Source of the DNA: a virus
DNA length: 64,000 nucleotides
Direction: 5' to 3' (one strand)
Virus record (IMG/VR): IMGVR_UViG_3300032116_000004
Location: 186,001 to 250,000 of that record
The translations under genes were made by a program, and so were the position numbers. Shown here in pieces: positions 27,596 through 44,485 of this stretch. Numbering within the stretch: the stretch's first letter is position 1; the number at the start of each line of letters is the position of its first letter. The notes under the pieces are model-generated. The model saw only the letters and a program-made list of their open reading frames with translations, ran no database searches and had not been told where the DNA came from.

Positions 27596-27672
27596 GGGCC
27601 TATAGCTCAGTTGGTTAGAGCAGTGGACTCATAATCCATTGGTCCCTGGTTCGAGTCCAGGTGGGCCCACCA
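27596..27672 (+). tRNA. tRNA with CAT anticodon (Ile2-like or Met)
   Basis: Full cloverleaf with encoded CCA. The anticodon loop is CTCATAA. The T-arm and variable loop (CATTGGTCCCTGGTTC) look more like the AUA-reading tRNA-Ile2, whose C34 is changed to lysidine, than elongator Met. It stands 6.6 kb away from the main array and has its own promoter. Confidence 0.85.
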
Positions 27673-30437: not shown

Positions 30438-31615
30438 TCCTCGAACAAAATCCCAAACTTGGTTTTTACACAGTAAACGGTAAGAACTTTTATTCTAAAC
30501 CTCAAGCCCTGCTAGAGGCCACCGCCACTGGTCAGTTTCCCACATGGAACTTCAATCGAGAAGTTTTTAGTCGCATGGACACAACCAAAGAGCCTCAGTT
30601 GAGCTTACGCGAACTGTATCGTATGCGGGCACAGCAACTGAGAGACCGATATGATTACATCCGATTGGAGTTTTCAGGTGGGTCAGACTCTGCTACAGTG
30701 CTCTATAGTTTTATCAACAACAACATACATCTCGACGAGGTGGTATTCCGCTATCCCATGCAAGGAGATAAAAATCTCGGCCCCGATGCCAAGAACATGA
30801 AGGCCGAAAATACCTTGAGCGAGTGGCACTTTGCGGCCAAACCTATCTTGCAAAAGTTGGCTGTCACCCATCCAACTATCAAGATCACCATGCATGATTT
30901 TTCCGACAACATCTTAAAATATCAAGGCGATGAATCATGGGTCAACAATGCCAAAGATTACTTACATCCTGAGCACACGTTCAAACACGACCCCTTGGGT
31001 CTAAAAGGTCACAAAGAGTTGGCCGAAACTGGCAAGCAGATTTGCATCCTCTATGGTGTGGACAAGCCCAAGGTCTGTATCAAAGATGGTCGTTGGTGGT
31101 TGTATTTCTTGGACATACAGGCCAATCACAGCCAGAACCAGCGTGGTCCTTATGACAACATTACCACAGAATATTTCTACTGGCAGGCTGATCTTCCGGA
31201 ACTCATAGTCAAACAAGCCCATACCATACGCAACTGGTTCATGACTCCCACTGCACAGCATCTACAGTTCCTAGTGCGTTGGCCCAATCACAGTGTAGCA
31301 CAACGTGGTGCCTACGAACAGTTGGCCAAGCCCTTGATCTACCCTGACTATGATCCCACCACATGGCAAACTACCAAGTCAACCAACAACTTCTACTCAG
31401 AAATGACTTGGTGGTTCTTCAAGAACTTCAAGGACACACGTTTCTACCAAGTCTGGGAAGCCGGTCTAGCGCACATGGTCAATTCCATTGATCCCAAGTT
31501 CTTTACCTATGAGCAAGGCCGTGCTGTGGGATTTGTTGGCTTCATGGATCAGTTTTACGATCTTGGGCCCACCGACTACGTAAATACCGACATCATCCAA
31601 GGATCTCTCAAATGA
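30431..31615 (+). CDS. PP-loop ATP pyrophosphatase-domain protein 1
   Basis: A 394-residue protein. LEFSGGSDSATVLYS near residue 79 is the SGGxDS PP-loop of N-type ATP pyrophosphatases, which adenylate a substrate before amidation or thiolation. The C-terminal half shares YFYWQADLPELIVKQAH with its paralogue at 47439. It is too large and lacks the cysteines of QueC. It overlaps a TctC gene by four bases, as its paralogue also does. The substrate is unknown; peptide, tRNA or small-acid modification are possible. Confidence 0.75.
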   Translation: MELLEQNPKLGFYTVNGKNFYSKPQALLEATATGQFPTWNFNREVFSRMDTTKEPQLSLRELYRMRAQQLRDRYDYIRLEFSGGSDSATVLYSFINNNIHLDEVVFRYPMQGDKNLGPDAKNMKAENTLSEWHFAAKPILQKLAVTHPTIKITMHDFSDNILKYQGDESWVNNAKDYLHPEHTFKHDPLGLKGHKELAETGKQICILYGVDKPKVCIKDGRWWLYFLDIQANHSQNQRGPYDNITTEYFYWQADLPELIVKQAHTIRNWFMTPTAQHLQFLVRWPNHSVAQRGAYEQLAKPLIYPDYDPTTWQTTKSTNNFYSEMTWWFFKNFKDTRFYQVWEAGLAHMVNSIDPKFFTYEQGRAVGFVGFMDQFYDLGPTDYVNTDIIQGSLK

Positions 31616-32511
31616 AAAAGTTTTTATTATCAATTGCCATTGCATTGGCGGCATTTTCTTCACACGCTCAACAGCAGATTTCTATAGTGTGGCCATTTGG
31701 CATGGGCGACACGCAGGCACAATATAGTCGCAGTCTAGTAGAAGAACTCAACAAGAATCAAAAGGCCTACACTTTCATCTTAGAAAATCGCCCAGGGGCC
31801 GGAGCTACCATTGGTGCCAAACATGTGGCAAGCACACCCAATTCTATTTTGTCCGCGTCCACAGCATTCTTTGTGAGACCTAACTTTTATCCTGAGGAAA
31901 GTCACAGTGTAGCAGACTTCCGGCCCTTGATGACACAGTGTGCCGCGCCCATGGTCATTGTGAGCAAACGATATCGCAATTGGAACGAAGTTGACAAATC
32001 AAAATCCATCAACATTGGCATTTCTGGGCTGGGTGCTACATCGCACTTGATGGCCATGGAGATTGTCAAGCAATATCCCAATGCTCAACCTGTGCCCTAC
32101 AAGGGCACTCGCGAAGCCAGTATAGATGTGATTGCAGGCAATATTGAACTCAGCGTGGCATTCTTGGGCGAGGTAGAAGGATTCCTTGATCGCGGTGATT
32201 TGTATGCTTTGGGTATTTCGGGCAGGAAAAAAGTGCGCGGCATAGCCACACTGGAAAGCCAAGGATTTGCTGGAGTGGGCGAAGTGGTCAACATGCACAG
32301 TCTACAAGTGCCACGATCCATGCCCGACTCACAGTATCAACAACTGCGCGGCATGATCATGCAAGCCGCTCGTGCTGATTCAGTCCAACGGGCCTATGCC
32401 GTGGACTACTGCGAATCCAGCAATCTTGATGCCATAGCCACACAGCGTTGGTTTGATTCACAGGTTGCCCTGTGGAAACGCCTGAGCCAAGGTGTGAAAC
32501 TGGCTAAATAA
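31612..32511 (+). CDS. tctC: TctC/Bug-family solute-binding protein 1
   Basis: A 299-residue periplasmic protein with a signal peptide (LLSIAIALAAFSSHAQ) and the family patterns ENRPGAGATIGAKHVA near residue 59 and ATSHLMAMEI near 143. Bug proteins bind carboxylates such as citrate, tartrate or nicotinate. It could serve the TctA/TctB permease at 24.5 kb. The gene is translationally coupled to the PP-loop gene. Confidence 0.85.
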   Translation: MKKFLLSIAIALAAFSSHAQQQISIVWPFGMGDTQAQYSRSLVEELNKNQKAYTFILENRPGAGATIGAKHVASTPNSILSASTAFFVRPNFYPEESHSVADFRPLMTQCAAPMVIVSKRYRNWNEVDKSKSINIGISGLGATSHLMAMEIVKQYPNAQPVPYKGTREASIDVIAGNIELSVAFLGEVEGFLDRGDLYALGISGRKKVRGIATLESQGFAGVGEVVNMHSLQVPRSMPDSQYQQLRGMIMQAARADSVQRAYAVDYCESSNLDAIATQRWFDSQVALWKRLSQGVKLAK

Positions 32512-32656: not shown

Positions 32657-33616
32657 ATGAGCAAAACTACTAAGATTCGTTGGGTTATAGCCCATGAGCC
32701 TTTGAACCTTTTCCTTCGTGCCGCTGAAGATTTTGAGCGTCGTGTAAACGAACAACAAAGCGAGCACAAGATCGAAGTGGAAATCATGACCTTGACAGAA
32801 TACAGCCAGCGTTACAACGATGGTGTCGTCATCACCAAGCACGATCTCTTGGATCTCATGGAACAGGGCAAAATTGAAATGAGCCAGATGTATACCACAT
32901 GGCTCGCAGAACGCTATGAGCAAGACTTCTTGGCATTCGATCTACCATTCCTGTTCCGGGATCACGAGCATGCTACTCGCGTGTTCGAGAGCGAGATCGG
33001 CGAAGGTCTGTTACAGAAACTCACAGACAAGTCAAACGTGCGTGGCCTTTGCTACACATATTCCGGTGGTTTCCGCCAGATGATCGCTAACAAGAAAGTT
33101 TCTACTCTAGAAGAACTTGCTGGCACACCTGTGCGTTCAAACCGTAATCCTGTGGCACAAGCAACTATCGCTGCCTTGGGCATGAAGCCTGTTGTGGCCG
33201 AAGTTGAAGATCTGCGTCGTGTTGTTGTAGAAGGTCAAGCCGAAGGTGGCGAAACCAACTATCCTCGCATGTATCCTCTGCGCCACAATGAAGTCACCAA
33301 GTCAGTGATCGACACTGGTCACAGCTTGTTCTTGACATCGATGATCATTGGTGATCAGTTCTGGTCATCATTGAGCCCAGAAGTGCAGGCCGTGATCAAG
33401 ACTGCCGCTATCCTGGCCGGACGTGAAGAGCGTGCTGAAACCATCCGTGATGGTGCTCGTGCCGAGAAGCGTCTAGTGGAAGAAGAAGGCGCCAACATCG
33501 TCAAGTGGACACAAGAGCAACGTGAAGCCGCCAAGGTTGCACTGAGTGGTGTTTACGATCAGTTCCGTGATTCATTCACACCTGGTCTCATTGAGGCGAT
33601 TGAAAAGAAGGCTTGA
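32657..33616 (+). CDS. DctP-like TRAP solute-binding protein without signal peptide
   Basis: A 319-residue protein of the TRAP-transporter DctP family: AYDLPFLF-like sequence (FDLPFLFRDHEHATRV near residue 96), YSGGFRQM near 135, the arginine-containing GTPVRSNRNPVAQAT near 155 and HSLFLTSMIIG near 225. Normal DctP proteins have an N-terminal signal peptide; this one begins MSKTTKIRWVIAHEP and enters the mature fold at once, so it should stay in the cytoplasm. No TRAP permease is in the window. Confidence 0.8.
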   Translation: MSKTTKIRWVIAHEPLNLFLRAAEDFERRVNEQQSEHKIEVEIMTLTEYSQRYNDGVVITKHDLLDLMEQGKIEMSQMYTTWLAERYEQDFLAFDLPFLFRDHEHATRVFESEIGEGLLQKLTDKSNVRGLCYTYSGGFRQMIANKKVSTLEELAGTPVRSNRNPVAQATIAALGMKPVVAEVEDLRRVVVEGQAEGGETNYPRMYPLRHNEVTKSVIDTGHSLFLTSMIIGDQFWSSLSPEVQAVIKTAAILAGREERAETIRDGARAEKRLVEEEGANIVKWTQEQREAAKVALSGVYDQFRDSFTPGLIEAIEKKA

Positions 33617-34409: not shown

Positions 34410-34484
34410 GGTCTCATAGTATAATGGTTAGTATAGCGGCTTGTCACGCCGTTGATAGGAGTTCGATTCTCCTTGGGACCGCCA
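34410..34484 (+). tRNA. tRNA-Asp (GTC)
   Basis: Seven-base acceptor stem GGTCTCA/TGGGACC, loop TTGTCAC, encoded CCA. Confidence 0.93.
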
Positions 34485-34490
34485 AACAAT

Positions 34491-34565
34491 TCCAAGGTAG
34501 CACAGCGGTAGTGCAGAAGACTGTTACTCTTTTGGTCGCAGGTTCGATCCCTGCCCTTGTAGCCA
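34491..34565 (+). tRNA. tRNA-Asn (GTT)
   Basis: Loop CTGTTAC; acceptor TCCAAGG/CCTTGTA has one mismatch; encoded CCA. Confidence 0.9.
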
Positions 34566-34571
34566 TGATCT

Positions 34572-34661
34572 CCCCCGCTAGCTCATGGAGAGCAGGTCGG
34601 CTTATAACCGATTAATCTAGATAAGGTCCAGGATGAGGTTCGATTCCTCAGCGGGGGACCA
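34572..34661 (+). tRNA. tRNA-Ile (TAT) with long variable region
   Basis: Acceptor CCCCCGC/GCGGGGG and loop CTTATAA give anticodon UAU, which reads AUA. The variable region is about 20 bases, far longer than in normal Ile tRNAs, and the D-loop is only five bases. Confidence 0.82.
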
Positions 34662-34670
34662 AAAAAATAT

Positions 34671-34747
34671 TACGGCGTAGTTCCAACTGGCAGAACGACA
34701 GTCTCCAAAACTGTATGATGGGGGTTCGAATCCCTCCGCCGTAGCCA
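34671..34747 (+). tRNA. tRNA-Trp (CCA)
   Basis: Acceptor TACGGCG/CGCCGTA, loop CTCCAAA, encoded CCA end. Confidence 0.92.
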
Positions 34748-34754
34748 ACACAAT

Positions 34755-34832
34755 GTGAAGGTGGCAGAGAGGTCCAATGCAAGAGTCTGCAAAACTCTAA
34801 AACCGTCGGTTCGAATCCGACCCTTCACTCCA
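34755..34832 (+). tRNA. tRNA-Cys (GCA)
   Basis: Acceptor GTGAAGG/CCTTCAC, loop CTGCAAA, discriminator T and encoded CCA. Confidence 0.93.
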
Positions 34833-35210
34833 TTAGAATTCTAGTCGTAGGCCTATGCTGAGATTGTTTATAACCAAAGCGGATTCCATACCAGTGACCA
34901 CTTTGAGATACAGAGTGCGGTTACGGCCTTGGAAATAATCTGCCGCAAAATAGTTGGCTACCATCCAAGTCACGAAATGCAGATCCACTGCTTGCGTGGT
35001 AGGATGCCGGCCCAACAACGGATTACGTTCATAGTAGCCTTCAGCATATCTGCGAGTCATGTTGCGTGTGGTCGCCCAATCACCCAGAATGGCCGCGTTG
35101 GATGCCAAGAACCAATTTTGTTGCTCTGTGGTCCAGTTAGACCAGGCCCAGCTAGCACTGGGCAACCATAGCAGGATGGCCAAGAGTTTTTTCACAACAA
35201 TATTTAACAA
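34833..35210 (-). CDS. Small exported protein within the tRNA array
   Basis: A 125-residue protein with an N-terminal signal peptide (LLAILLWLPSASWAW). The mature part has YYERNPLLGRHPT and two weaker hydrophobic stretches, as in small envelope proteins found in Burkholderiales. It is antisense to the tRNAs, ending at the base after tRNA-Cys and starting one base before tRNA-Ser. Function unknown; a GTG seven codons in (VKKLLAIL) is an alternative start. Confidence 0.6.
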   Translation of the reverse strand: MLNIVVKKLLAILLWLPSASWAWSNWTTEQQNWFLASNAAILGDWATTRNMTRRYAEGYYERNPLLGRHPTTQAVDLHFVTWMVANYFAADYFQGRNRTLYLKVVTGMESALVINNLSIGLRLEF

Positions 35211-35211
35211 T

Positions 35212-35301
35212 GGAAGCGTGGCAGAGTCTGGTTTATTGCACCGGTCTTGAAAACCGACGATCCGAAAAGGTCCGTGAGTTCGAATCTCACCGCTTCCGCC
35301 A
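35212..35301 (+). tRNA. tRNA-Ser (TGA)
   Basis: Acceptor GGAAGCG/CGCTTCC, loop CTTGAAA, long variable arm typical of Ser, encoded CCA. Confidence 0.93.
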
Positions 35302-35306
35302 AACCT

Positions 35307-35396
35307 GGAGAGGTCCCATAATGGTATTGGAGCGGATTGCTAATCCGTCGGTCGGCGTAATCCGGCTTCTGGGTTCAAGTCCCAGTCTCTCCGCCA
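35307..35396 (+). tRNA. tRNA-Ser (GCT)
   Basis: Acceptor GGAGAGG/TCTCTCC, loop TTGCTAA, long variable arm, encoded CCA. Confidence 0.93.
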
Positions 35397-35621
35397 TATC
35401 CCGTCCATAGCAAACGTGATTGCTGTCGCTTACTCAGCGTTACGAGTCGGGGGCGGAGAACCGTTAAGCAGAGTGCCCTTTTATTGGGAGTCCAAACCGC
35501 TGTGCTGAATCACAACAGCGAAGAAGTTAACAACGTGATGACAGAGTAGACAACTCAGGACGGGGCGATGTGGAAACGTGGCCGTCCACCAAATATGTTT
35601 TTAGACAGGTGTGAATTCACT
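35397..35621 (+). ncRNA. Candidate structured RNA within the tRNA array
   Basis: A 225-base gene-free, GC-richer stretch between tRNA-Ser and tRNA-His. Stems include CGCTGT/ACAGCG (35498-35503 with 35515-35520) and GGACGG/CCGTCC (35558-35563 with 35582-35587). No frame or promoter is seen. Probably a structured RNA, function unknown. Confidence 0.4.
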
Positions 35622-35696
35622 GGTGTGGGTAGTGTAATGGTAGCACACTTGATTGTGGATCAGGTAGTGCGGGTTCGAATTCCGTCCTTCACCCCA
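35622..35696 (+). tRNA. tRNA-His (GTG)
   Basis: Loop TTGTGGA and the extra 5' G opposite C73, as required for His. The acceptor stem has one T-T mismatch. Confidence 0.88.
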
Positions 35697-35705
35697 AATG
35701 TGTGA

Positions 35706-36173
35706 TCAAGTGGGTGTTACTTGCCCGGTAACAGCATCCACATGCACAGGTCGGCGTGTGACAAATGCGAAATCATAGAAAGGATTGAAGCGATAGTCTA
35801 CTGTTTTGCGCAGTCTGCAGAATGTCCAGGTGTCGGTGATTCCGGCCTTGGCCATGGCCTGCTGTGCTTGGGCGCAACTCAGTTTGGGTGGATACACAAA
35901 CGCCGTGCATTCGGCCACTCGCGAATCATCAATCACAGGTGAGGTGGCATGTCCTGATGTATCAATGGTTATGGCATAGGGTTTTTGATCTTGAGAACCT
36001 TGCCAAACAGTATACATGGTTCCGCCTGCATTGGCTTCGGCGAGATAAAATTGCGATGCGCTCTGATAGAGATCCATGAGACTCTTGCCGCCCCATATTT
36101 GCTGATCGTATGTCAAGGGCGATAACACCCCCAGTCGTCTGAGATGTTTCTTTACAGCGGCTATGATTTTCAT
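35706..36173 (-). CDS. Unrecognised protein within the tRNA array
   Basis: A 155-residue protein with a basic N-terminus and no signal peptide; three cysteines and a Tyr/Phe-rich C-terminal part. It is antisense to the tRNAs. AAGGGG lies upstream and a perfect TATAAATA box (36195-36202) further up suggests late transcription. Confidence 0.5.
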   Translation of the reverse strand: MKIIAAVKKHLRRLGVLSPLTYDQQIWGGKSLMDLYQSASQFYLAEANAGGTMYTVWQGSQDQKPYAITIDTSGHATSPVIDDSRVAECTAFVYPPKLSCAQAQQAMAKAGITDTWTFCRLRKTVDYRFNPFYDFAFVTRRPVHVDAVTGQVTPT

Positions 36174-36194
36174 GGTTAATCCCCTTTATTCGAG

Positions 36195-36202
36195 TATTTA
36201 TA
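36195..36202 (-). promoter_or_regulatory. T4-late-promoter-like TATAAATA box
   Basis: On the minus strand this reads TATAAATA, 21 bases before the start of the antisense gene at 36173. Confidence 0.4.
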
Positions 36203-36213
36203 GGTGTTTTTTT

Positions 36214-36290
36214 GCCCCGGTGACGGAATTGGTATACGTGTTGGTCTTAGAAACCAAATTTTAGGAGTTCGAGTCTCCTCTGGGGCACCA
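36214..36290 (+). tRNA. tRNA-Leu (TAG)
   Basis: Acceptor GCCCCGG with TGGGGC-type 3' arm, loop CTTAGAA, encoded CCA. The variable arm is short for Leu. Confidence 0.9.
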
Positions 36291-36303
36291 AATTTATTAG
36301 TAT

Positions 36304-36380
36304 GCGGTAGTGACGGAATCGGCATACGTATCGGACTTAAAATCCGAGTTTTGTGGGTTCGAGTCCCACCTTCCGCACCA
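36304..36380 (+). tRNA. tRNA-Leu (TAA)
   Basis: Loop CTTAAAA; acceptor GCGGTAG/CTTCCGC has one mismatch; encoded CCA. Very similar in D-arm to the preceding tRNA-Leu, so they may be duplicates. Confidence 0.9.
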
Positions 36381-36385
36381 TACAA

Positions 36386-36464
36386 CGGAGTGTAGGCTAG
36401 TCTGGTCCAAGTCGCCTGCTTTGGGAGCAGGAAACCGCAGGTTCGAATCCTGCCACTCCGACCA
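36386..36464 (+). tRNA. tRNA-Pro (TGG)
   Basis: Acceptor CGGAGTG with CACTCCG, loop TTTGGGA, encoded CCA. Confidence 0.93.
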
Positions 36465-36465
36465 A

Positions 36466-37659
36466 TCACAAAGGATGTCTTAATAGATCTTTTAAACAAC
36501 GATTTGATTCATCTAGCGTGAGTCTTTTTAATTTGTCATGAAATCGCTGTTTGGCAAAATCCAGGTTAGCATCAAACCTTTGTTGATTTTGATTCCAGAG
36601 TCTGACAGTATCAACAGGATTTGTGAGCAAGTGCTTGTTATTACTCACGGCGGTATACAATCTATCTATAGGGTTATCTATGATGTCATACGAATGATCA
36701 ATGATGTCGTCAAACATATCAAATCCAAAACTACGATAAAGATCTACGGTTCCTCGACTAGATATCATGATAGGAAAATTCCGAGCATATATCGTGTGGA
36801 TAAATTTTTCATCGATGTTAATAGTTGGCTCGCAGAAAAGTCTATTTGAAACCAATTCTACAAAACTTGTTCTATACAAAGGACGCAGATTGTTTCCAAA
36901 ATTGTTCACGTTATCAAAGTCTAGCACTGTGTCAGATCCAGCCTCTGTCAAATAGATGTCGTTGCCATTATCATCACCAAATCGTAAATTATCAGGATTT
37001 GATATCATCTTGTCAAACCCTTGGCACATGATCTGTTTTACATGATCATTGTGATCATGATATTGCCAAGGGTTGTGATCAAGGAAATCCCTGCTAGGCA
37101 ATTTATCTAATTGTTTGTATAAATGACCAGTGCTGATATGGCAGCAATTATCTAGATCTAATCCATACAAAAGGCTACAGAGAGCCAATCGATGAGTGCG
37201 CATTTGTCTATTCAGTGCGATGCCTATTTTTTTAGATTGTTGATTCTTGTCGTTGATTGGGGATAATTTTGCATATAGATCATCTTCAGGAACGGTAAAC
37301 CATTTGCCTACTCTTACATTGGGCAGATTGAAATATCCATCATGATAATGATTACCTTGTAACATAAAGACAATGGTTTTTTCAGGAGATGCGAGCGCCA
37401 GGTTCCTGATGTCTTGGAAAATAGTGGGTTCTTGGCCTTCAGTCCAATAATCATACTCCTGTGGGAAATTGCCGTAATGAGGACTGTCTTCCAAAATCAA
37501 AAACAACAGGTTTTCGTTGAGATCAAGGTTTAACCATTGATTCCAAGATGTTATATGCGTAAAAACACTGTCGTGCGGCACAGAAATGGCATCAGTCACT
37601 GTGTCAAATAATTTTCGTGCCATGGGCAATCTGTGTGGCACATGAGTAAAATATTTCAT
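36466..37659 (-). CDS. Glycosyltransferase-like protein (paralogue family member 2)
   Basis: This 397-residue protein has the family C-terminal block: INIDEKFIHTIYARNFPIMISSRG, LYRSFGFDMFDD and IDHSYD, closest to the protein at 54729. The TEK of other members is DEK here. The start is the ATG at 37659 because the longer frame would run through tRNA-Leu(CAA). It lies antisense inside the tRNA array and is AT-rich, which suggests insertion from elsewhere. Confidence 0.6.
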   Translation of the reverse strand: MKYFTHVPHRLPMARKLFDTVTDAISVPHDSVFTHITSWNQWLNLDLNENLLFLILEDSPHYGNFPQEYDYWTEGQEPTIFQDIRNLALASPEKTIVFMLQGNHYHDGYFNLPNVRVGKWFTVPEDDLYAKLSPINDKNQQSKKIGIALNRQMRTHRLALCSLLYGLDLDNCCHISTGHLYKQLDKLPSRDFLDHNPWQYHDHNDHVKQIMCQGFDKMISNPDNLRFGDDNGNDIYLTEAGSDTVLDFDNVNNFGNNLRPLYRTSFVELVSNRLFCEPTINIDEKFIHTIYARNFPIMISSRGTVDLYRSFGFDMFDDIIDHSYDIIDNPIDRLYTAVSNNKHLLTNPVDTVRLWNQNQQRFDANLDFAKQRFHDKLKRLTLDESNRCLKDLLRHPL

Positions 37660-37681
37660 ATACAAATTTATGTAAACCCAT

Positions 37682-37759
37682 GCCCCCTTGGACAAATAGG
37701 TAAAGTCGTCTCTCTCAAAAGGAGAAGTTCTCTCGGTTCGAATCCGAGAGGGGGTACCA
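37682..37759 (+). tRNA. tRNA-Leu (CAA)
   Basis: Acceptor GCCCCCT/AGGGGGT, loop CTCAAAA, encoded CCA. Confidence 0.9.
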
Positions 37760-37765
37760 AACAAT

Positions 37766-37841
37766 GCAGGTATAATTCAGCTGGAAGAATGTCACGTTGC
37801 CAACGTGGATGTCGTCGGTTCGAACCCGACTACCTGCTCCA
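37766..37841 (+). tRNA. tRNA-Gly (GCC)
   Basis: Acceptor GCAGGTA/TACCTGC, loop TTGCCAA, discriminator T, encoded CCA. Confidence 0.92.
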
Positions 37842-37915
37842 GAATTATGTCCCAGGCCTCCGACTATTGGCCACTCGTTGATGCGCAGTGGTTGCGTCTG
37901 TGTTTTCTTTTTCTT

Positions 37916-37990
37916 GCATCGTTAGTTTAATGGTAAAACGCCCTCCTTACAAGTGGGATAGCGGTGGTTCGATTCCATCACGATGCACCA
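37916..37990 (+). tRNA. tRNA-Val (TAC)
   Basis: Acceptor GCATCGT/ACGATGC, loop CTTACAA; one mismatch in the anticodon stem; encoded CCA. Confidence 0.9.
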
Positions 37991-37992
37991 AT

Positions 37993-38068
37993 GCCGCTTT
38001 AGCTGATGTGGTCATAGCACCGGTTTGAAGCACCGAGGAACCTGGTTCGATCCCAGGGGGCGGCACCA
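37993..38068 (+). tRNA. tRNA-Phe (GAA)
   Basis: Acceptor GCCGCTT/GGGCGGC, loop TTGAAGC, encoded CCA; outermost anticodon-stem pair is a mismatch. Confidence 0.86.
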
Positions 38069-38074
38069 CTCTGT

Positions 38075-38148
38075 TGGGGGTTAGTTAAATGGTATAACCA
38101 CGGATTTTGATTCCGTTATTATAGGTTCGATTCCTATACCCTCTGCCA
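38075..38148 (+). tRNA. tRNA-Gln (TTG)
   Basis: Loop TTTTGAT, acceptor TGGGGGT/ACCCTCT with a weak first pair, as in Gln tRNAs; encoded CCA. Confidence 0.9.
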
Positions 38149-38154
38149 ATCATC

Positions 38155-38230
38155 GGGACGTTAGCTCATTAGGTAGAGCAGTAGACTTTTAATCTATTGG
38201 TGGTGGGTTCGAATCCCGCACGTCCTACCA
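38155..38230 (+). tRNA. tRNA-Lys (TTT)
   Basis: Acceptor GGGACGT/ACGTCCT, loop CTTTTAA, encoded CCA. Confidence 0.94.
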
Positions 38231-38234
38231 ATAT

Positions 38235-38309
38235 GGTAATGTAGCATAACGGTAGTGCTCCACCTTCATACGGTGTTCAGTGTAAGTTCGACTCTTACCA
38301 TTACCACCA
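38235..38309 (+). tRNA. tRNA-Met (CAT), elongator type
   Basis: Acceptor GGTAATG/CATTACC with a normal first pair, loop TTCATAC, encoded CCA. Confidence 0.88.
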
Positions 38310-38314
38310 AATAT

Positions 38315-38390
38315 CCGGCCGTGGTCTAATGGATAAGGCAACGCTCTTCTAAAGCGTCCGATGTGGGTTCGATTCCTGCCGGCCGGGCCA
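38315..38390 (+). tRNA. tRNA-Arg (TCT)
   Basis: Acceptor CCGGCCG/CGGCCGG, loop CTTCTAA, encoded CCA. Confidence 0.94.
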
Positions 38391-38392
38391 AA

Positions 38393-38468
38393 CGGTCCTT
38401 AACTCAATGGATAGAGTGCCAGTCTTCGAAACTGGAGGTTGGGAGTTCGAGTCTCTCAGGACCGGCCA
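38393..38468 (+). tRNA. tRNA-Arg (TCG)
   Basis: Acceptor CGGTCCT/AGGACCG, loop CTTCGAA, encoded CCA; two bases after the preceding tRNA. Confidence 0.94.
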
Positions 38469-38470
38469 AT

Positions 38471-38544
38471 GCTCGGGTAGTTAAATGGTATAACGGCCGA
38501 CCGATAATCGGCTATTCCTGGTTCGATCCCAGGTCTGAGCACCA
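38471..38544 (+). tRNA. tRNA-Ile (GAT)
   Basis: Acceptor GCTCGGG/TCTGAGC, loop CCGATAA, encoded CCA. Confidence 0.92.
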
Positions 38545-38635
38545 ATTTTGCCAAATCAGTCAACGCTGAACACTGCTGTGACGTTATATAAGTGTAGGAC
38601 ATAATTCCTACAGTTTCTAACCAAAGGAGAACTTT

Positions 38636-38845
38636 ATGAAACTCGTAACCACACTCGTAGCAAGTTTGTTTGCAGTATCCGCTTTCGCACAAGCACCTGC
38701 CAAGAAAGAAGAAAAGAAAGAAGCAGCCAAGCCTGCCGCAGCCGCTCCTGCACCTGCCGCCAGTAAGCCTGCCGACAAAAAGGCTGAGCCTGCCAAAAGC
38801 GACGCTAAAAAAGACGATAAAAAAGCCGAAGCCGCTAAGAAGTAA
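38636..38845 (+). CDS. Small exported Lys/Ala/Pro-rich protein
   Basis: A 69-residue protein with a signal peptide (MKLVTTLVASLFAVSAFAQA) and a mature part made almost only of Lys, Ala, Pro, Glu and Asp. Such low-complexity secreted proteins are common in Burkholderiales. AAGGAG precedes the ATG. It would be a charged, disordered periplasmic peptide of unknown role. Confidence 0.65.
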   Translation: MKLVTTLVASLFAVSAFAQAPAKKEEKKEAAKPAAAAPAPAASKPADKKAEPAKSDAKKDDKKAEAAKK

Positions 38846-38861
38846 TCCAACCAGGTATATC

Positions 38862-39071
38862 CTGGTCCATGTAGAGGGCAACGAAGATGGGTATTCCATC
38901 GACGATGAAAACATCTATGTAGGCTACAGGAGACCTGAAGTGGTAAAAGATCTCAAAGATACTGTCGCTGATGACGAGGATCTTTCGGATTATATAAAAA
39001 CCCGTTTGTTTTTAGCCCGACAGTTGGCCTTGATGAAAGCAATGGGATATGATTTAAGGACCCGAGTCTGA
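38862..39071 (+). CDS. Small acidic protein, start uncertain
   Basis: An open frame of about 69 residues with acidic N-terminal half (DDENIYVGYRRPEVV) and a helical end (LFLARQLALMKAMGYD). No ATG, GTG or TTG lies in the right place; a CTG after CCAGG is the best guess. Its stop codon is inside the terminator at 39060. Confidence 0.4.
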   Translation: MVHVEGNEDGYSIDDENIYVGYRRPEVVKDLKDTVADDEDLSDYIKTRLFLARQLALMKAMGYDLRTRV

Positions 39072-39086
39072 CTCGGGTTCTTTTTT
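39060..39086 (+). terminator. Rho-independent terminator
   Basis: ACCCGAGT, CTG, ACTCGGGT, then TCTTTTTT. It ends exactly where tRNA-Ala starts. Confidence 0.85.
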
Positions 39087-39160
39087 GGGGGATTAGTTAA
39101 ATGGGATAACATCGGCTTTGCAAGCCGAGATTGAGAGTTCGATTCTCTCATTCTCCACCA
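39087..39160 (+). tRNA. tRNA-Ala (TGC)
   Basis: Acceptor GGGGGAT/ATTCTCC, loop TTTGCAA, encoded CCA. Its 5' end directly abuts the terminator T-run, so expression needs read-through or processing. Confidence 0.9.
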
Positions 39161-39169
39161 TCCAACTCG

Positions 39170-39199
39170 TTGACAGTCACTAAATATTTTTGTTATAAT
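39170..39199 (+). promoter_or_regulatory. Sigma70-type promoter
   Basis: TTGACA, 18 bp, perfect TATAAT; consensus at all twelve positions. It could serve the small genes at 39.2 kb and the tmRNA. Confidence 0.8.
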
Positions 39200-39220
39200 C
39201 AAGTAACCAAGGAGACTGCG

Positions 39221-39382
39221 ATGGAACAGAAAAAACAACCAGTGCCAGAATATTTCTTCAGTGCCGGTGAATGGGACAGACTGGGTTGTGGTCCTTTGCC
39301 ACCAGAGCGCAACAAGGATCGTCTGCAGATTCCGGAAAAGAGCGTGCAAAACAAAGATGACGCTGGCCTTGGCTACGATTGA
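39221..39382 (+). CDS. Small protein
   Basis: A 53-residue acidic protein beginning MEQKKQPVPEYFF, with AAGGAG at good distance and a consensus promoter upstream. No family recognised. Confidence 0.55.
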   Translation: MEQKKQPVPEYFFSAGEWDRLGCGPLPPERNKDRLQIPEKSVQNKDDAGLGYD

Positions 39383-39392
39383 TGTGATCATG

Positions 39393-39476
39393 GCCAACAT
39401 GGTTTTTGCTGTTGCTGTGATGTGGCTACTGATTGAAGATTTTCGCACAGAAATGCGGAATTTGTCGGCTAAGTAA
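39393..39476 (+). CDS. Possible 27-residue membrane peptide
   Basis: MANMVFAVAVMWLLIEDF is a single transmembrane helix followed by a charged tail. No good ribosome site, so support is only its position and composition. Confidence 0.3.
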   Translation, partial: ANMVFAVAVMWLLIEDFRTEMRNLSAK

Positions 39477-39483
39477 TTTTACT

Positions 39484-39857
39484 ATGCAGGAGTATGCACC
39501 CAAGGGCTCTTGAAAAATCTCTTGGAATTGTTGATGTGGTGAGAGGCCACAGGTCACGCGAGGACCGTACATGTCCTGATAGTCTCGTGAAAGAATTGTT
39601 GTATGAAGCAAAGAGAAAAGTGTTCAAGACATGGGTTCGAATCCCATCACCTCCACCTAAGTGTATAAGGTATATTTAGGTGGGGGTGCTCCGGTAATCG
39701 ATTGAGCAAAGAGTAAATGAGTGGACAACACGATAGGCGATGATCGTTAATCAAGCAAACTTTATAACTGCAAACGATGAGTTATACGCTCTAGCCGCCT
39801 GATAGGCACTAGATGAGGATTTTCCGGTTGTGCCTTATAACCCAAACAACCGGTTGA
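39484..39857 (+). ncRNA. ssrA: tmRNA, circularly permuted (two-piece)
   Basis: The acceptor half comes first: a T-arm (ATGGG-TTCGAAT-CCCAT, 39631-39647), the 3' acceptor strand CACCTCC (39648-39654) and ACC. After a 24-base spacer comes the 5' strand GGGGGTG (39682-39688), which pairs with it fully. TTGAGCA (39702-39708) pairs with TGTTCAA (39621-39627) as helix P2. The tag frame at 39770-39802 encodes ANDELYALAA and stop. A pseudoknot follows (AGGCAC/GTGCCT crossed with CCGGTTG/CAACCGG). It rescues stalled ribosomes. Exact outer ends are estimates. Confidence 0.92.
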
Positions 39858-39882
39858 CTCTTTTTTATTTTCCTGTTATAAT
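39854..39882 (+). promoter_or_regulatory. Sigma70-type promoter for tRNA-Glu
   Basis: TTGACT, 17 bp, perfect TATAAT; starts next to the last stem of the tmRNA and lies 35 bases before tRNA-Glu. Confidence 0.75.
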
Positions 39883-39916
39883 TAACAATCGTTCTTTAAC
39901 AATTCACAGCATCAAT

Positions 39917-39991
39917 GCTCGGTTCGTCTATCGGTTAGGACACCGCCCTTTCACGGCGGGAAGAGGGGTTCGATTCCCCTACCGAGTACCA
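39917..39991 (+). tRNA. tRNA-Glu (TTC)
   Basis: Acceptor GCTCGGT/ACCGAGT, loop CTTTCAC, encoded CCA. Confidence 0.94.
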
Positions 39992-40527
39992 TAAGCAAAC
40001 ATATCGGCCCCAGTGTCATACCTAATAGGTCTGCGGCAACACTGGGTGAAATCCTGTCGCAGGGACAAAGGTATGTTTGCTTATGGTAAATGGTGTGAGC
40101 GAAAGAACGCCTCGCCAGCAATACCCTGACCATCGGGGGAGATAACCACCCTAAGCCGCTGTAACCGTAATAGGACGCACTCGTTGGCTACGAGATGAAC
40201 ACGCGAGAGGGGGACTGGGCACCAGGCTGATACCCTGGGCAAAATGTCTGGACCTTAAACACAAGATGGTGTCATTTATCATTTCAACATAGACAGACAG
40301 TGATGCATACTATATTCCTGGCGGTACTACAAGCCCGGGTCACTCACTGCTATGTTTAGCCATACTGGATCGATCCGAGTATACGGTAGTTTTCCAGTCA
40401 CTGGCAACCCCAATCGGTCTGGGCTACACTCTGTGCTCTGTATGATCTGACGGAACGTTGATCCTCTACATCACAGGTCACTGAGCATCAACACAGACTC
40501 CGCATAATCGTAAGCGGAACTAACAAT
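39992..40527 (+). ncRNA. Large structured RNA candidate (about 540 bases)
   Basis: No gene fits here. It opens at the base after tRNA-Glu with a 12-bp stem (39992-40003 with 40072-40083) enclosing a pseudoknot: CCCAGTGT/ACACTGGG (40009-40016 with 40039-40046) crossed by CTGCG/CGCAG (40031-40035 with 40058-40062). Further stems are AACATAG+CAGTGA with TCACTG+CTATGTT (40286-40303 with 40344-40356) and GTTGAT/ATCAAC (40457-40462 with 40487-40492). Size and place beside tRNAs recall GOLLD or ROOL RNAs, but I cannot match it to either. Confidence 0.55.
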
Positions 40528-40602
40528 CGCGGAGTATATCAGTGGCAGATGGCGAGTCTCATAAGCTCGAGGTCAGTGGTTCGAATCCACTCTCCGCAAC
40601 CA
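40528..40602 (+). tRNA. Initiator-like tRNA-Met (CAT)
   Basis: Loop CTCATAA. The acceptor CGCGGAG/CTCCGCA has the C1-A72 mismatch that marks bacterial initiator tRNA, but the anticodon stem (CGAGT/GCTCG) lacks the three G-C pairs normally needed in the P site. Confidence 0.85.
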
Positions 40603-40608
40603 AATAAA

Positions 40609-40686
40609 GCGGGTAGATCGTGGCAAGGGGCGCCCAGCAGTCTTCCAAACTGATCATGCGGAGTTCGACTCTCCCTACCCGCTCCA
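40609..40686 (+). tRNA. tRNA-Gly (TCC)
   Basis: Acceptor GCGGGTA/TACCCGC, loop CTTCCAA, discriminator T, encoded CCA; D-arm is irregular. Confidence 0.87.
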
Positions 40687-40930
40687 GGACGTTCCGTGTA
40701 GCAACGGATAGTGCGACCCGCACGATGAGAAGTGGTGTAGCAACCACGGGTGGTCCCAGTCTAACCTAACTGGCGCTGGCAATGCGACAATCCCGAGGGT
40801 GGCGAGCGGGTGCCTACCAGCCCAAGTAGTCCTGCTGAGGGACTGGAAGCCGATGGGCCAAAGGTGGTAACACGAATCCAACCAGGACGCTGGCAGGCAA
40901 CAAAAAGACCGCGGCTCTCGGGCAAGCACT
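40687..40930 (+). ncRNA. Candidate structured RNA before rpoZ
   Basis: A GC-rich gene-free stretch with repeated small hairpins. Two share the same loop sequence: TCCG-TGTAGCAA-CGGA (40693-40708) and GTGG-TGTAGCAA-CCAC (40732-40747). Others are CCAGT/ACTGG and AGTCC/GGACT. It may be the 3' continuation of the RNA at 39992, interrupted by two tRNAs, or the leader of rpoZ. Confidence 0.45.
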
Positions 40931-40952
40931 TTCTAAACACAAGGAGAATGTC

Positions 40953-41180
40953 ATGGCAAGAATCACATCAGAAAAAGCAGTAGAAGCCGTAGGTAATCGT
41001 TATGATCTAGTGTTGATCGCTAGTCGCCGAGCACGTGAGTTATCCAACGGCCATGCTCCTCACATCACGACCGACGATACTACCACAGTCAAGGCCATCC
41101 GCGAGATTGAACAAGGTCATGTGGGCAGAGATTACCTAAATAAAAACCCAGAAATAAACAAGAAAAAATCCAAATCTTGA
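40953..41180 (+). CDS. rpoZ: RNA polymerase omega subunit-like protein
   Basis: This 75-residue protein begins MARITSEKAVEAVGNRYDLV and continues IASRRARELSNGH and TVKAIREIEQGHVG, the core of bacterial RpoZ (about 70-90 residues). The omega subunit helps assemble the host polymerase and, in proteobacteria, forms part of the ppGpp site. The MAR N-terminus of that site is kept. AAGGAG precedes the ATG. As part of a phage-like genome it would insert into host polymerase; this function is inferred. Confidence 0.88.
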   Translation: MARITSEKAVEAVGNRYDLVLIASRRARELSNGHAPHITTDDTTTVKAIREIEQGHVGRDYLNKNPEINKKKSKS

Positions 41181-41211
41181 TTTTTATTGCAAAGAGATAT
41201 ATACACATATT

Positions 41212-41646
41212 ATGCTATCATTCATACGCGAACTCACTGATCCACTGTTAGATTATCTCAAGGACGATCCAGTGCGTCCCGAGATCTCACGCGAATTCCG
41301 TGTGAGTGGTCAGCGTTTCGTGTCAGCCCTGGTAGACGATCAACCACGTGCCATGGTCTGCGTGAGCCTGCATGATTTTGTGCCTGAGACTGTGGCGGAT
41401 CTGTCGCAGGACCCTGCGGAACCCAACACAGCGATATTTTATACTATCTGGAGTTATGCTCCTGGAGCGGCCACAGAACTGTTGTTTGCCACAGTGGATC
41501 AAATCCGAGAACTTTATCCCACTGTGCGACGATTCGTCACACTGAGTCCCAAGACAGAAATGGCTCGCAAATTCCATCTACGCAACGGGGCACATGTGCT
41601 GAGAGAAAACACAGACACTGTCAACTACGAATATATAATTGCATGA
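41212..41646 (+). CDS. GNAT-like protein
   Basis: A 144-residue protein. RRFVTLSPKTEMARKFHLRNGAHVL near the end has the pattern of the last helix and strand of a GNAT acetyltransferase, but the acetyl-CoA loop (Q/RxxGxA) is not obvious. It may be a degenerate acetyltransferase. It overlaps the next gene by four bases. Confidence 0.5.
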   Translation: MLSFIRELTDPLLDYLKDDPVRPEISREFRVSGQRFVSALVDDQPRAMVCVSLHDFVPETVADLSQDPAEPNTAIFYTIWSYAPGAATELLFATVDQIRELYPTVRRFVTLSPKTEMARKFHLRNGAHVLRENTDTVNYEYIIA

Positions 41647-41810
41647 CCAAATTCACTGACACTCTACGGGCCGCGCTAGAGAAAAAACATGCCGCGGCAC
41701 ATCCTGACACCAAGTCGGATGCCAAAGATGATGGCAAAAGCAAACCTAAAAGGACACCGCCGGTGATCACGGGTAAACCAGTAAAGAAAGTCACTGGACG
41801 TGGACGCTAG
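41643..41810 (+). CDS. Small lysine-rich protein
   Basis: A 55-residue basic, probably disordered protein (MTKFTDTLRAALEKKHAAA start, Lys/Pro-rich end). Coupled to both neighbours by overlap. Confidence 0.5.
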   Translation: MTKFTDTLRAALEKKHAAAHPDTKSDAKDDGKSKPKRTPPVITGKPVKKVTGRGR

Positions 41811-41916
41811 TATTTGGAACTTGCCTTGGTGGCAACTGGGTTGGGGACTGGCAGTGGTAGCCAACTACATTTATTGGATCTTTGTTGATCCTGTGTTGCA
41901 TACAGAACGCAGTTGA
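41800..41916 (+). CDS. Small membrane protein
   Basis: A 38-residue peptide from a GTG start with a Trp-rich transmembrane helix (LGWGLAVVANYIYWIFV). Its last codons overlap the -35 box of the next promoter. Confidence 0.4.
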   Translation: MDASIWNLPWWQLGWGLAVVANYIYWIFVDPVLHTERS

Positions 41917-41941
41917 CCAAAAACTGCTTTTCTAGTATAAT
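41913..41941 (+). promoter_or_regulatory. Sigma70-type promoter, leaderless type
   Basis: TTGACC, 17 bp, perfect TATAAT. The next ATG starts exactly six bases after the -10 box. Confidence 0.75.
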
Positions 41942-41947
41942 GCTAGA

Positions 41948-42313
41948 ATGGACTTTTACATAGATGAAGCATATCTCACTGATGTTGTAGTGCGGACTGA
42001 ATATCCTCGCTACAACGATCGCACAGAGCTGACTGCAGAAGAACTTATCTCGGTAATAAAACATCCTGCGCCTGCTGTTAGTATTGGCACCAAAGATCAT
42101 CCTGAGTTTGCTTGCCTACGTGAGCAGTTAGAACAAGATGGATATATTCAAGTTCAACGTGGTTGGTGGAACGGTGATCGTGTGTTAAAGCCATTCCAGT
42201 TAAACGATGTAAAATTTAAAAAAGGTGATCAGTTTCCCTGTGCCGCGGCCATGAACGGTCATTTAAAGTTTCGAAAACTATATAAACAAAAGAAAGGAGG
42301 GCACAATGCCTAG
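41948..42313 (+). CDS. Unrecognised protein, leaderless mRNA
   Basis: A 121-residue protein with a C-terminal basic tail (KFRKLYKQKKGGHN). The ATG is six bases downstream of the -10 box, so the transcript should start at or next to the ATG. It overlaps the phosphoesterase gene by eight bases. Function unknown. Confidence 0.6.
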   Translation: MDFYIDEAYLTDVVVRTEYPRYNDRTELTAEELISVIKHPAPAVSIGTKDHPEFACLREQLEQDGYIQVQRGWWNGDRVLKPFQLNDVKFKKGDQFPCAAAMNGHLKFRKLYKQKKGGHNA

Positions 42314-42896
42314 TGTATTTTTAGTATCAGACACGCACTTTGGTCACGCAGGTGTGTGCCGCTTCACACTCAACGACGGAGTAACCAAACTTCGTCCCTG
42401 GGATGATCCAGAGGAGATGGATGAGTTCATGATCAAGGCCTGGAACGAACGTGTCCGACCTACAGACAAAGTCTACCACTTGGGCGATGTTGTGATCAAC
42501 AGAAAAGCGTTGAAAACTCTTGCTCGTCTAAACGGTGACAAGGTCTTGATCCGCGGCAATCACGACATCTTCAGAGATGATGAGTATCGAGCATACTTCC
42601 GTGAGCTTCGTGCTTACCATGTGATGAATGGCATGATCTTGAGTCATATCCCTATCCATAGCGAAAGCCTGGGTCGGTTTGGTGTCAACATCCATGGTCA
42701 CTTGCATGCCAACCGGGTGATGAAAGCCATGCCGCCGGCATACAGGCCTGATATCATAGATCCACGTTATCATTGTGTGTGCGTGGAACAAACTGACTTT
42801 GCTCCTATCTTGTTCGAAGATGTGATCAAGCGCATCGAAGCAGAAGGTGGTACTATCGGTTTTCAAAACGGCAACGGCCCTCGAGGTGCAGATTGA
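42306..42896 (+). CDS. Calcineurin-like metallophosphoesterase
   Basis: A 196-residue protein with the metal motifs in order: VSDTHFGH near residue 7, YHLGDVV near 58, IRGNHD near 79 and NIHGHLHA near 125. It hydrolyses phosphate esters; phage members often act on nucleotides or 2',3'-cyclic phosphates. The reading frame starts after AAGGAGGG, the strongest ribosome site in this region. Confidence 0.88.
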   Translation: MPSVFLVSDTHFGHAGVCRFTLNDGVTKLRPWDDPEEMDEFMIKAWNERVRPTDKVYHLGDVVINRKALKTLARLNGDKVLIRGNHDIFRDDEYRAYFRELRAYHVMNGMILSHIPIHSESLGRFGVNIHGHLHANRVMKAMPPAYRPDIIDPRYHCVCVEQTDFAPILFEDVIKRIEAEGGTIGFQNGNGPRGAD

Positions 42897-43063
42897 TGAC
42901 ATATCCAAGGATCAAATTCTGGGAAGCCACCATCCGCACCCCAGATGGTCAAGAGTTTAAAGACCGTGTGGGAGCAGATACGGCCGAACAGGCTCGTAGA
43001 CTTTTGCAAGAACGGCATGGCCCACGTGCAGTGCCTTACTTGCCGCGCATGATCCCCAGTTAG
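42896..43063 (+). CDS. Small protein
   Basis: A 55-residue basic protein (MTYPRIKFWEATIRTPDGQ start) with a helix EQARRLLQERHG. The pattern resembles a small ribosome- or phage-type DUF (modified-residue proteins with GADTAEQA). Start overlaps the phosphoesterase stop by one base. Confidence 0.45.
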   Translation: MTYPRIKFWEATIRTPDGQEFKDRVGADTAEQARRLLQERHGPRAVPYLPRMIPS

Positions 43064-43200
43064 GGCCACAGTCAGCCTTGCTCACTTGGCCAGCGCCAAT
43101 AAGTGCCGATAGCAAAATGACTGGGTGACGTCGGGTAATACCGCAAGAGCCGTAGATACCATAAGTCTGCGCCGGACTGGGTAACCGGCATACATATTTC
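43064..43200 (+). ncRNA. Candidate structured RNA before radical SAM gene
   Basis: A 137-base gene-free stretch with GGCC/GGCC, CAGTCA/TGACTG, GGT/ACC and GCCGG/CCGGC stems reaching to the next ATG, where no Shine-Dalgarno is visible. It may be a leader or cis-regulatory RNA for the radical SAM gene. Confidence 0.35.
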
Positions 43201-44388
43201 ATGCCAAAAATCATTTCCATAGAACCTGCCATTGATCCTAATGCCAGACCTACATTCTTACTAGATTGGGAATTGACCATGAAGTGCAATCTAGACTGTA
43301 GTTACTGTCCTACTCCAGATCAGGTTCCTGTATCTATGGCCTATCATGACAATTCAGCTGATCATCCATCGTTGGAAAAATGTCTATCGACTATAGATTT
43401 CATGTATGAATATGTGGATCTTTACATGCAACAAAAACCACGATGGAATAGGTCTGTGGTGCTCAATATCTACGGTGGAGAGAGTTTGTTTCATCCAGAC
43501 ATAGAAAAGATCATGGCTGCGGTCAGAGACAAACATAAGCCTTATCGAGACAGTTGGCCATTGACTGTGACTTGCACAACCAATGGCGTCGTTGGTCCAA
43601 ATCTCATGAAGAGAGTGGTAGGCTTTGTAGATGAATTCACAGTGAGTTATCATGCGGAATCATTGTCCAAACAAAAACAACAAGTGCTAGACAATCTTCG
43701 TTTGATAAAAAATAGTGGCCGTCGTCTCAAGTGTGTTGTGCTCATGCACGGCGATGAAAAATTTTGGCCAGAATTGCAAGAAGTCATTGCTTTCTGCCAA
43801 CAAGAGAATATTCGATATCTTCCCCGGCATTTGGATGGTCATGTCAATGCCAATTATGGCCCCAAACAAATACAATGGTTCCAAAATTTATGGAATCAAC
43901 GCAGTCCTGGCCATGCCGCGATCAAACAGCGAGAAATTATTGAACACAAACAACAAACACTGACGAGCAATGTAGATCTATCTGATGTGGGCAGGGCCTG
44001 TTGCGGCGGCAGATTGATGTGTGTCAATCAAGAAATGAAAGATCCGATATTTTACATTCCTGACAATAACTTCCTGGGCTGGAAATGCAGTGTGAATTGG
44101 TATTTTTTGTATGTTAAACAACACACCGATGAAGTTTATCTCAACAAAGACTGTCGCATGAATTTTGACGGGTCTGTATCACCAATCGGTTATCTCAATA
44201 ATACCACGGAAATTTTAGATTGGCTCAAAACTAGATTCCATGGATCCAACCTTCCCGTCATCACCTGTGCCAAAAATCTTTGCACATGTGGTCTGTGCGC
44301 ACCAAAAAGCCAATCCGAATCTAACTTTCGTGAGATAATGCGTAAACATGTAGCCGATATCAATGTTTTTGATGTTGACACAGCGTGA
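43201..44388 (+). CDS. Radical SAM enzyme with C-terminal cysteine cluster
   Basis: A 395-residue radical SAM protein: LTMKCNLDCSYC near residue 30 holds the CxxxCxxC cluster, and NIYGGESLFH near 94 the SAM-binding GGE. The C-terminal part has many cysteines (ACCGG, WKCS, DCRM, CAKNLCTCGLC), enough for a SPASM-like auxiliary cluster. Such enzymes modify peptides or small molecules. No precursor peptide is evident, though the small basic genes next to it are candidates. Confidence 0.82.
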   Translation: MPKIISIEPAIDPNARPTFLLDWELTMKCNLDCSYCPTPDQVPVSMAYHDNSADHPSLEKCLSTIDFMYEYVDLYMQQKPRWNRSVVLNIYGGESLFHPDIEKIMAAVRDKHKPYRDSWPLTVTCTTNGVVGPNLMKRVVGFVDEFTVSYHAESLSKQKQQVLDNLRLIKNSGRRLKCVVLMHGDEKFWPELQEVIAFCQQENIRYLPRHLDGHVNANYGPKQIQWFQNLWNQRSPGHAAIKQREIIEHKQQTLTSNVDLSDVGRACCGGRLMCVNQEMKDPIFYIPDNNFLGWKCSVNWYFLYVKQHTDEVYLNKDCRMNFDGSVSPIGYLNNTTEILDWLKTRFHGSNLPVITCAKNLCTCGLCAPKSQSESNFREIMRKHVADINVFDVDTA

Positions 44389-44403
44389 TGATTATCGTAA
44401 AAT
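44375..44403 (+). promoter_or_regulatory. Sigma70-type promoter for tRNA-Thr
   Basis: TTGACA, 17 bp, TAAAAT, lying across the end of the radical SAM gene, nine bases before tRNA-Thr. Confidence 0.7.
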
Positions 44404-44411
44404 AACATTCT

Positions 44412-44485
44412 GCCCTGTTAGTTAAATGGTATAACAGTTGATTTGTAATCATCAATTGGCAGTTCGATTCTGTCACGGGGCACCA
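44412..44485 (+). tRNA. tRNA-Thr (TGT)
   Basis: Acceptor GCCCTGT/ACGGGGC, loop TTTGTAA with one T-T mismatch in the anticodon stem, encoded CCA. Separate from the main array; it completes the set of 20 amino acids. Confidence 0.88.

Follow-up and report, generated by a model that had tools for sequence, protein, structure and literature searches.

A complete circularly permuted tmRNA gene of beta type in the tRNA array of a jumbo phage, and protein-coding intervening segments in related phage tmRNA genes

Two-piece tmRNAs have already been reported in phages, among them that of methylophage Melnitz, and 53 of 133 unique phage tmRNA structures were suggested to be two-piece (PMC9004378). A survey of 97,179 tmRNAs, 79 of them from phages, described a tRNA-Ala gene in one intervening sequence and a repetitive element in another, and mentioned no open reading frame (ORF) in such a segment (PMC11915505). 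Our literature search, with most subscription papers outside its reach, likewise found no report of ORFs in tmRNA intervening segments (IVS). Permuted phage tmRNA is thus already known, and for an ORF-filled IVS no earlier description was found. The gene described here resembles that of Melnitz in being a permuted tmRNA of a phage that carries its own tRNAs; however, the Melnitz gene has alphaproteobacterial affinities and a predicted glutamine riboswitch (PMC9004378), whereas the present gene is of beta type and its jumbo phage also encodes ClpP and a ClpA-like protein. With the permuted tmRNA of betaproteobacteria (RF01850/RF04321) it shares the gene order, the fold, the acceptor GGGGGUG/CACCUCC, a short UAAG...UUUAGGU IVS, and a 10-residue ANDxxxALAA tag. 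Unlike the betaproteobacterial genes, it is phage-borne and lies in a tRNA array, its IVS sequence is absent from bacteria, it is only about 73% identical to its best Burkholderiales match, and there is no SmpB gene in its record. A cultured counterpart is the jumbo Sinorhizobium phage Phosso (PV764938.1; terminase 48% identical), which has a permuted tmRNA with the full acceptor fold; its IVS, unlike the present one, is 411 nt long, and neither a CDS nor a tmRNA is annotated at PV764938.1 349487-350239. The permuted tmRNAs with odd IVS in the survey (PMC11915505) set a precedent for an IVS that tolerates inserts, but the phage relatives described below differ from those cases in holding intact protein ORFs under purifying selection.

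The stretch of DNA that was analyzed (the window, 64,000 nucleotides) comprises positions 186001-250000 of a 315,778-base IMG/VR record, a linear contig without end repeats. The record encodes a tail sheath, a terminase, a capsid-type structural protein, a phage-type B-family DNA polymerase (PolB), and ribonucleotide reductase, and the named terminases nearest to its own (52% identity) come from Pseudomonas phage PA5oct and other jumbo phages. Judged by gene content, the record is a jumbo-myophage contig and not a chromosome. These virion and replication genes ruled out a chromosome fragment as well as a plasmid or integrating conjugative element, which the gene layout had suggested. A chromosome with a single native ssrA, the finding that by the earlier note would have counted against a phage tmRNA, is therefore not what the record represents, and no second, standard ssrA scored over the cut-off in the 315,778 bases. 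The tmRNA lies, as the earlier note had it, within a large tRNA array, which holds 25 tRNA genes; together with a lone tRNA-Met, the 26 tRNAs of the window cover 19 of the 20 amino acids, with Tyr missing (Table 1). Other features of the region include genes of the tripartite transporter families TctA, TctC, and DctP shortly before the array (window 24644-26122, 31612-32511, and 32657-33616), and, outside the window, a single ORF of 4,835 amino acids on the minus strand (record G000:270757-285264).

Table 1. Features of the permuted tmRNA gene and its surroundings (positions are those of the window unless a locus handle is given)
Feature	Position	Strand	Source or remark
tRNA array, 25 tRNA genes surrounding the tmRNA	34410-44485	+	ARAGORN, Rfam
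Lone tRNA-Met	27596-27672		
tRNA-Ala(UGC), upstream neighbor of the tmRNA	39087-39160	+	ARAGORN
Sigma70-like promoter TTGACA-18-TATAAT, perfect, extended -10	39170-39199	+	Consensus match only; upstream of the tmRNA
3' half (acceptor piece) of the tmRNA	39597-39657	+	
Outer helix strand GUUGU	39598-39602	+	Pairs with ACAAC 39725-39729
P2 strand UGUUCAA	39621-39627	+	Pairs with UUGAGCA 39702-39708
T-arm	39631-39647	+	
3' acceptor strand CACCUCC	39648-39654	+	
A73-C74-C75	39655-39657	+	
24-nt IVS	39658-39681	+	UAAGUGUAUAAGGUAUAUUUAGGU; no ORF
5' half (coding piece)	39682-39861	+	Includes the tag and the downstream pseudoknot
5' acceptor strand GGGGGUG	39682-39688	+	
Tag reading frame ANDELYALAA and stop UGA	39770-39802	+	
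Pseudoknot helix GGCAC/GUGCC	39805-39809/39830-39834	+	From sequence
Pseudoknot crossing helix CCGGUU/AACCGG	39824-39829/39848-39853	+	From sequence
tRNA-Glu(UUC), downstream neighbor of the tmRNA	39917-39991	+	ARAGORN
ORF-bearing permuted tmRNAs, examples	L195 (G021), L201, L202, L353, L382, L399, L408, L372, L351, L380, L263, others		

The permuted tmRNA proposed in the earlier note was recovered by both of the approaches that the note had named, the tRNA and tmRNA finder ARAGORN and covariance models of the permuted form. ARAGORN placed a permuted tmRNA at 39566-39893 with the tag ANDELYALAA and its stop, and two Rfam models matched above their gathering thresholds: RF04321 (tmRNA_permuted) at 39597-39802 (128.2 bits; E = 1e-24; threshold, 47) and RF01850 (beta_tmRNA) at 39563-39861 over its full length (model positions 1-331; 127.2 bits; E = 2e-38; threshold, 84). 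The latter was the best-scoring Rfam subtype within its clan. The gene extends from about 39563 to 39861 on the plus strand; the span of 39484-39857 given before began about 80 nt too early. The T-arm and the 3' acceptor strand do precede the 5' acceptor strand, with 39648-39654 pairing to 39682-39688 at 7 of 7 positions, including the G3-U70 alanine identity pair. The tag frame also reads as first described (codons, 39770-39799; stop, 39800-39802), and both helices of the crossed pseudoknot 3' of the tag were located within 39805-39853, by reading of the sequence. The gene encodes ACC followed by U at its 3' end, so that the final A has to come from addition after processing. For the precursor, a 19-bp hairpin is predicted at 39648-39688, in which the IVS pairs with itself and with the ACC and so extends the acceptor stem; the region from 39590 to 39803 had a minimum free energy z-score of -2.6. 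Taken together, the matches and the anatomy confirmed the presence in the window of a complete tmRNA gene in circularly permuted (two-piece) form.

Among 98 listed phage loci that had been picked by the tag pattern alone, the permuted fold was present in 79 and the standard fold in 15. The permuted loci used 12 different acceptor pair combinations, and when the upstream sequence was shuffled (20 rounds), none of the loci retained the permuted fold. Scans for the tag pattern, the acceptor pattern, and the string ACCA-AUAAGGA-ATG, followed by a structure-based finder, yielded at least 227 distinct permuted tmRNAs, a few bacterial loci included, with IVS of 21 to 416 nt. None of 88 intervening segments contained a tRNA. 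The phage tags mostly have hydrophobic ends of the -ALAA type. Several phage permuted tmRNAs (L027, L030, L047, L070, L081, L095, L032, and L386) carry very long tags of about 25 to 33 amino acids (for example, ANVNKTVTVSGKNVKFSARTAKEALAV), some of them without the ALAA end. T-loops such as GGCAGUG or UGCGAAU replace UUCRANY in many phage permuted tmRNAs (L200, L211, L222, L226, L263, and others) and resemble that of the mitochondrial tmRNA model. In cyanophage BUCT-ZZ01 (ON615601.1, 117163-117357), a beta-type permuted tmRNA is missing from the annotation, and its 3' half coincides in part with the annotated CDS UTS52133.1; a tRNA-Pyl(CUA) is called by ARAGORN nearby, at 118326-118401.

SmpB genes were found neither in the 315,778-base record nor in 13 further phage records, and since the phage record lacks SmpB, the function of the tmRNA would depend on SmpB of the host. 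The record does encode a ClpP (99103-99693; PF00574, 266 bits; E = 5e-70 to a solved bacterial ClpP) in which the Ser, His, and Asp motifs are all kept and the triad is intact. It also encodes a ClpA-like protein of 760 amino acids (150413-152695) with both AAA+ modules (ClpA/B domains), a Clp N domain, and an IGF docking motif at residue 614. A second ClpP-like protein (G000:96906-97487, outside the window) is closer to head maturation proteases and lies 2 kb upstream of the true ClpP; four records of the terminase family likewise carry a ClpP pair. The phage ClpP and ClpA-like unfoldase could use the tag, and because their genes are about 126 kb and about 75 kb, respectively, from the tmRNA gene, we infer rather than observe a joint tmRNA-Clp module.

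Our favored reading, which we hold to be likely, is that the gene is a phage-owned permuted ssrA of beta type, descended within phages and most likely functional, which would give a two-piece RNA that works with host SmpB and directs its tagged products to ClpAP. From the anatomy, the gene content, and the acceptor pairing conserved among phages, we infer the steps of processing, charging, host SmpB use, tagging, and degradation. The precursor would fold into one long hairpin, host RNase P would cut before G39682, and host 3'-end enzymes would trim after C39657, with CCA addition finishing the tail to give the two-piece RNA. Once charged by host AlaRS, this RNA would be taken by host SmpB to the ribosomes that stall on broken mRNAs in the infected cell. 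ClpAP of the phage or the host would degrade the tagged fragments, and ribosomes, tRNAs, and amino acids would thereby be freed for virion production. The role in rescuing ribosomes during infection that the earlier note had offered is plausible, and it gains strength from the ClpP and ClpA-like proteins that the phage itself encodes.

The earlier note had also offered capture of the gene from a host with two-piece tmRNA; as a simple or recent event, this was not supported. That the gene was taken, along with tRNAs, from a current betaproteobacterial two-piece host and is essentially that host's ssrA appears unlikely, even though beta_tmRNA is its best Rfam subtype and a looser pattern retrieved seven bacterial genes of the same architecture, from Rhodocyclaceae, Burkholderiaceae, and kin, whose short UAAG...UUUAGGU IVS measure 25 to 35 nt. 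The exact stretch of acceptor plus 24-nt IVS had no match in the genomes of an 84,980-species prokaryote collection, no host emerged from exact IVS matches among these genomes (the true host possibly lies outside the collections), and the best match among 399 Burkholderiales genomes reached only 73% over 179 nt. The identical 24-nt IVS did occur in at least 15 phage contigs, with tags that were quite different. In a phylogenetic tree built from 78 permuted tmRNAs, the window sequence (represented by contig L058, which comes from the same phage and is identical to it across 417 nt) fell within a group of 28 phage rows with 82/98 support, and the 13 bacterial rows were placed elsewhere, together with two high-GC viral contigs; with 144 columns and many open forks, the tree is usable for this grouping and not for its details. 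The window tmRNA was thus placed in a phage-only group, on few columns, and not among betaproteobacterial ssrA genes. By its anatomy it is of beta type, and on the tree we do not file it as a betaproteobacterial gene. These results indicated that the gene descends within phages and was not recently picked up from the present host. Permuted tmRNAs were also found in phages of Stenotrophomonas (Marzo) and Xanthomonas (X1). The ssrA genes of Stenotrophomonas and Xanthomonas themselves are one-piece, and therefore the permuted form need not follow the host.

Three further explanations were weighed. That the tmRNA rides as a passenger in the tRNA array without a selected function would fit a phage that lacks SmpB and the absence of a tmRNA from most records of the terminase family, although nearly all of these are fragments. 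This seems quite unlikely, as all structural elements are intact, the acceptor pairing is kept in related phages through compensatory changes, and most tags retain hydrophobic ends of the -ALAA type. Selection on the window copy itself is read from these relatives, because the only close homologue (L058) is identical and no diverged one was available. Still less probable, in our estimation, is that the phage tmRNA acts as a decoy that competes with or poisons host trans-translation, in the way that the tag-less tmRNA of mycobacteriophage DS6A is reported to act (PMC11915505). Such a decoy would bind the host SmpB that the phage lacks; however, the tag of the window gene is complete and ends in a standard ALAA, in contrast to DS6A, and the ClpP and ClpA-like protein that the phage contributes could make use of it. 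Finally, integrating elements commonly target ssrA (PMC11915505), and the sequence might be what such an element left behind at its junction. We give this very little credence, since the gene is complete, lies inside the tRNA array, and is present in related phages.

A relative with a different IVS was a phage of 331,654 bases (G021) whose terminase is 71% identical to that of the window phage and whose tmRNA (L195:13519-14064) also lies in its tRNA array. This tmRNA was missed by ARAGORN, and RF04321 spanned it (74.8 bits) when a short stretch was searched. Its acceptor, GGGCCUG/CAGGUCC, is compensatory relative to that of the window and keeps G3-U70, and between its two halves lies an intact ORF of 101 amino acids (L195:13604-13909). 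The same arrangement was found in L201 and L202, with proteins 88% and 74% identical. The window holds the empty form (24 nt) of an IVS slot, and G021, from the same terminase family, the filled form. The tRNA arrays of both phages also encode a small basic protein with a KPVKKVTGRG(R/G) end (window 41643-41810 and L195:12057-12218).

In all, at least 48 distinct phage-contig tmRNAs had an IVS filled by one intact ORF of 35 to 133 amino acids. Of 51 listed IVS of at least 150 nt, 41 were filled to at least 80% by one ORF starting within the first 40 nt, compared to a mean of 0.76 and a maximum of 5 when the IVS interiors were shuffled (200 rounds); 30 of these 41 ORFs had their stop codon ending one base before the 5' half. 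The dN/dS ratio was 0.10 to 0.35 in ten clusters with diverged members; one further cluster gave 0.7 to 1.4 on few changes and was uninformative, and another consisted of identical sequences. The IVS ORFs are thus far above chance and under purifying selection. Their products belong to many unrelated families, including thioredoxin, DUF2061, PGDYG, and unknowns; one was weakly GNAT-like (predicted structure pLDDT 64; matches only at E above 0.01), and the structure of another was poorly predicted (pLDDT 44). RF04321 covered the insert in all 14 loci tested (78 to 136 bits). The frequency of the ORF form cannot be read from the set found with ACCA-AUAAGGA-ATG, because this pattern selects for a Shine-Dalgarno sequence and a start codon; in the sample picked by tag alone, 4 of the 79 listed permuted loci had a full ORF of at least 40 amino acids. 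The ORF form was seen in metagenomic contigs only, and INPHARED contained no cultured homologues of two IVS ORFs. As cultured ORF forms, we rejected the 411-nt IVS of Phosso, which lacks both an annotated CDS and the kind of Shine-Dalgarno start seen in the others, as well as BUCT-ZZ01, Xanthomonas phage X1, and Stenotrophomonas phage Marzo, which are permuted but have a short IVS without such an ORF. Since ARAGORN missed 21 of 51 long-spacer tmRNA genes tested, such genes are probably under-annotated. One tRNA array with an ORF-bearing permuted tmRNA also holds a GOLLD giant RNA (RF02032; 192.6 bits; L434:9451-9914).

Of the 48 ORF-bearing segments, 46 had ends that paired in a single register over at least 6 contiguous bases, with a mean of 10.9, compared to a mean of 8.6 and a maximum of 9.4 after partners were shuffled. 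Because the two ends pair, the Shine-Dalgarno sequence lies inside a helix. In most of these segments the opposite strand encodes the last codons, and 25 of the 48 proteins end in Ser-Leu. That the phage IVS is a slot for an exchangeable protein ORF is, as an arrangement, very likely. More tentatively, and with less than even confidence, we suggest that expression of the ORF may be coupled to or regulated by tmRNA maturation. The Shine-Dalgarno sequence AUAAGGA, right after the ACC, would be locked inside the helical extension of the acceptor stem, with the ORF stopping at the UGA of UGAU, usually one base ahead of the 5' half, and RNase P together with 3'-end processing would excise a tiny mRNA, so that the making of tmRNA and the expression of the ORF would be coupled or in competition.

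The window phage unites a beta-type permuted tmRNA, 26 tRNAs, ClpP, and a ClpA-like protein in one jumbo phage, and with this gene set phage-run ribosome rescue and tag degradation become directly testable. Such tmRNA genes are indicated to be an old phage lineage that need not share the tmRNA form of the host. If true, the exchangeable protein genes between the tmRNA halves would represent a new way for protein genes to be nested within structured RNA genes, in which the excised spacer of the tmRNA would become an mRNA.
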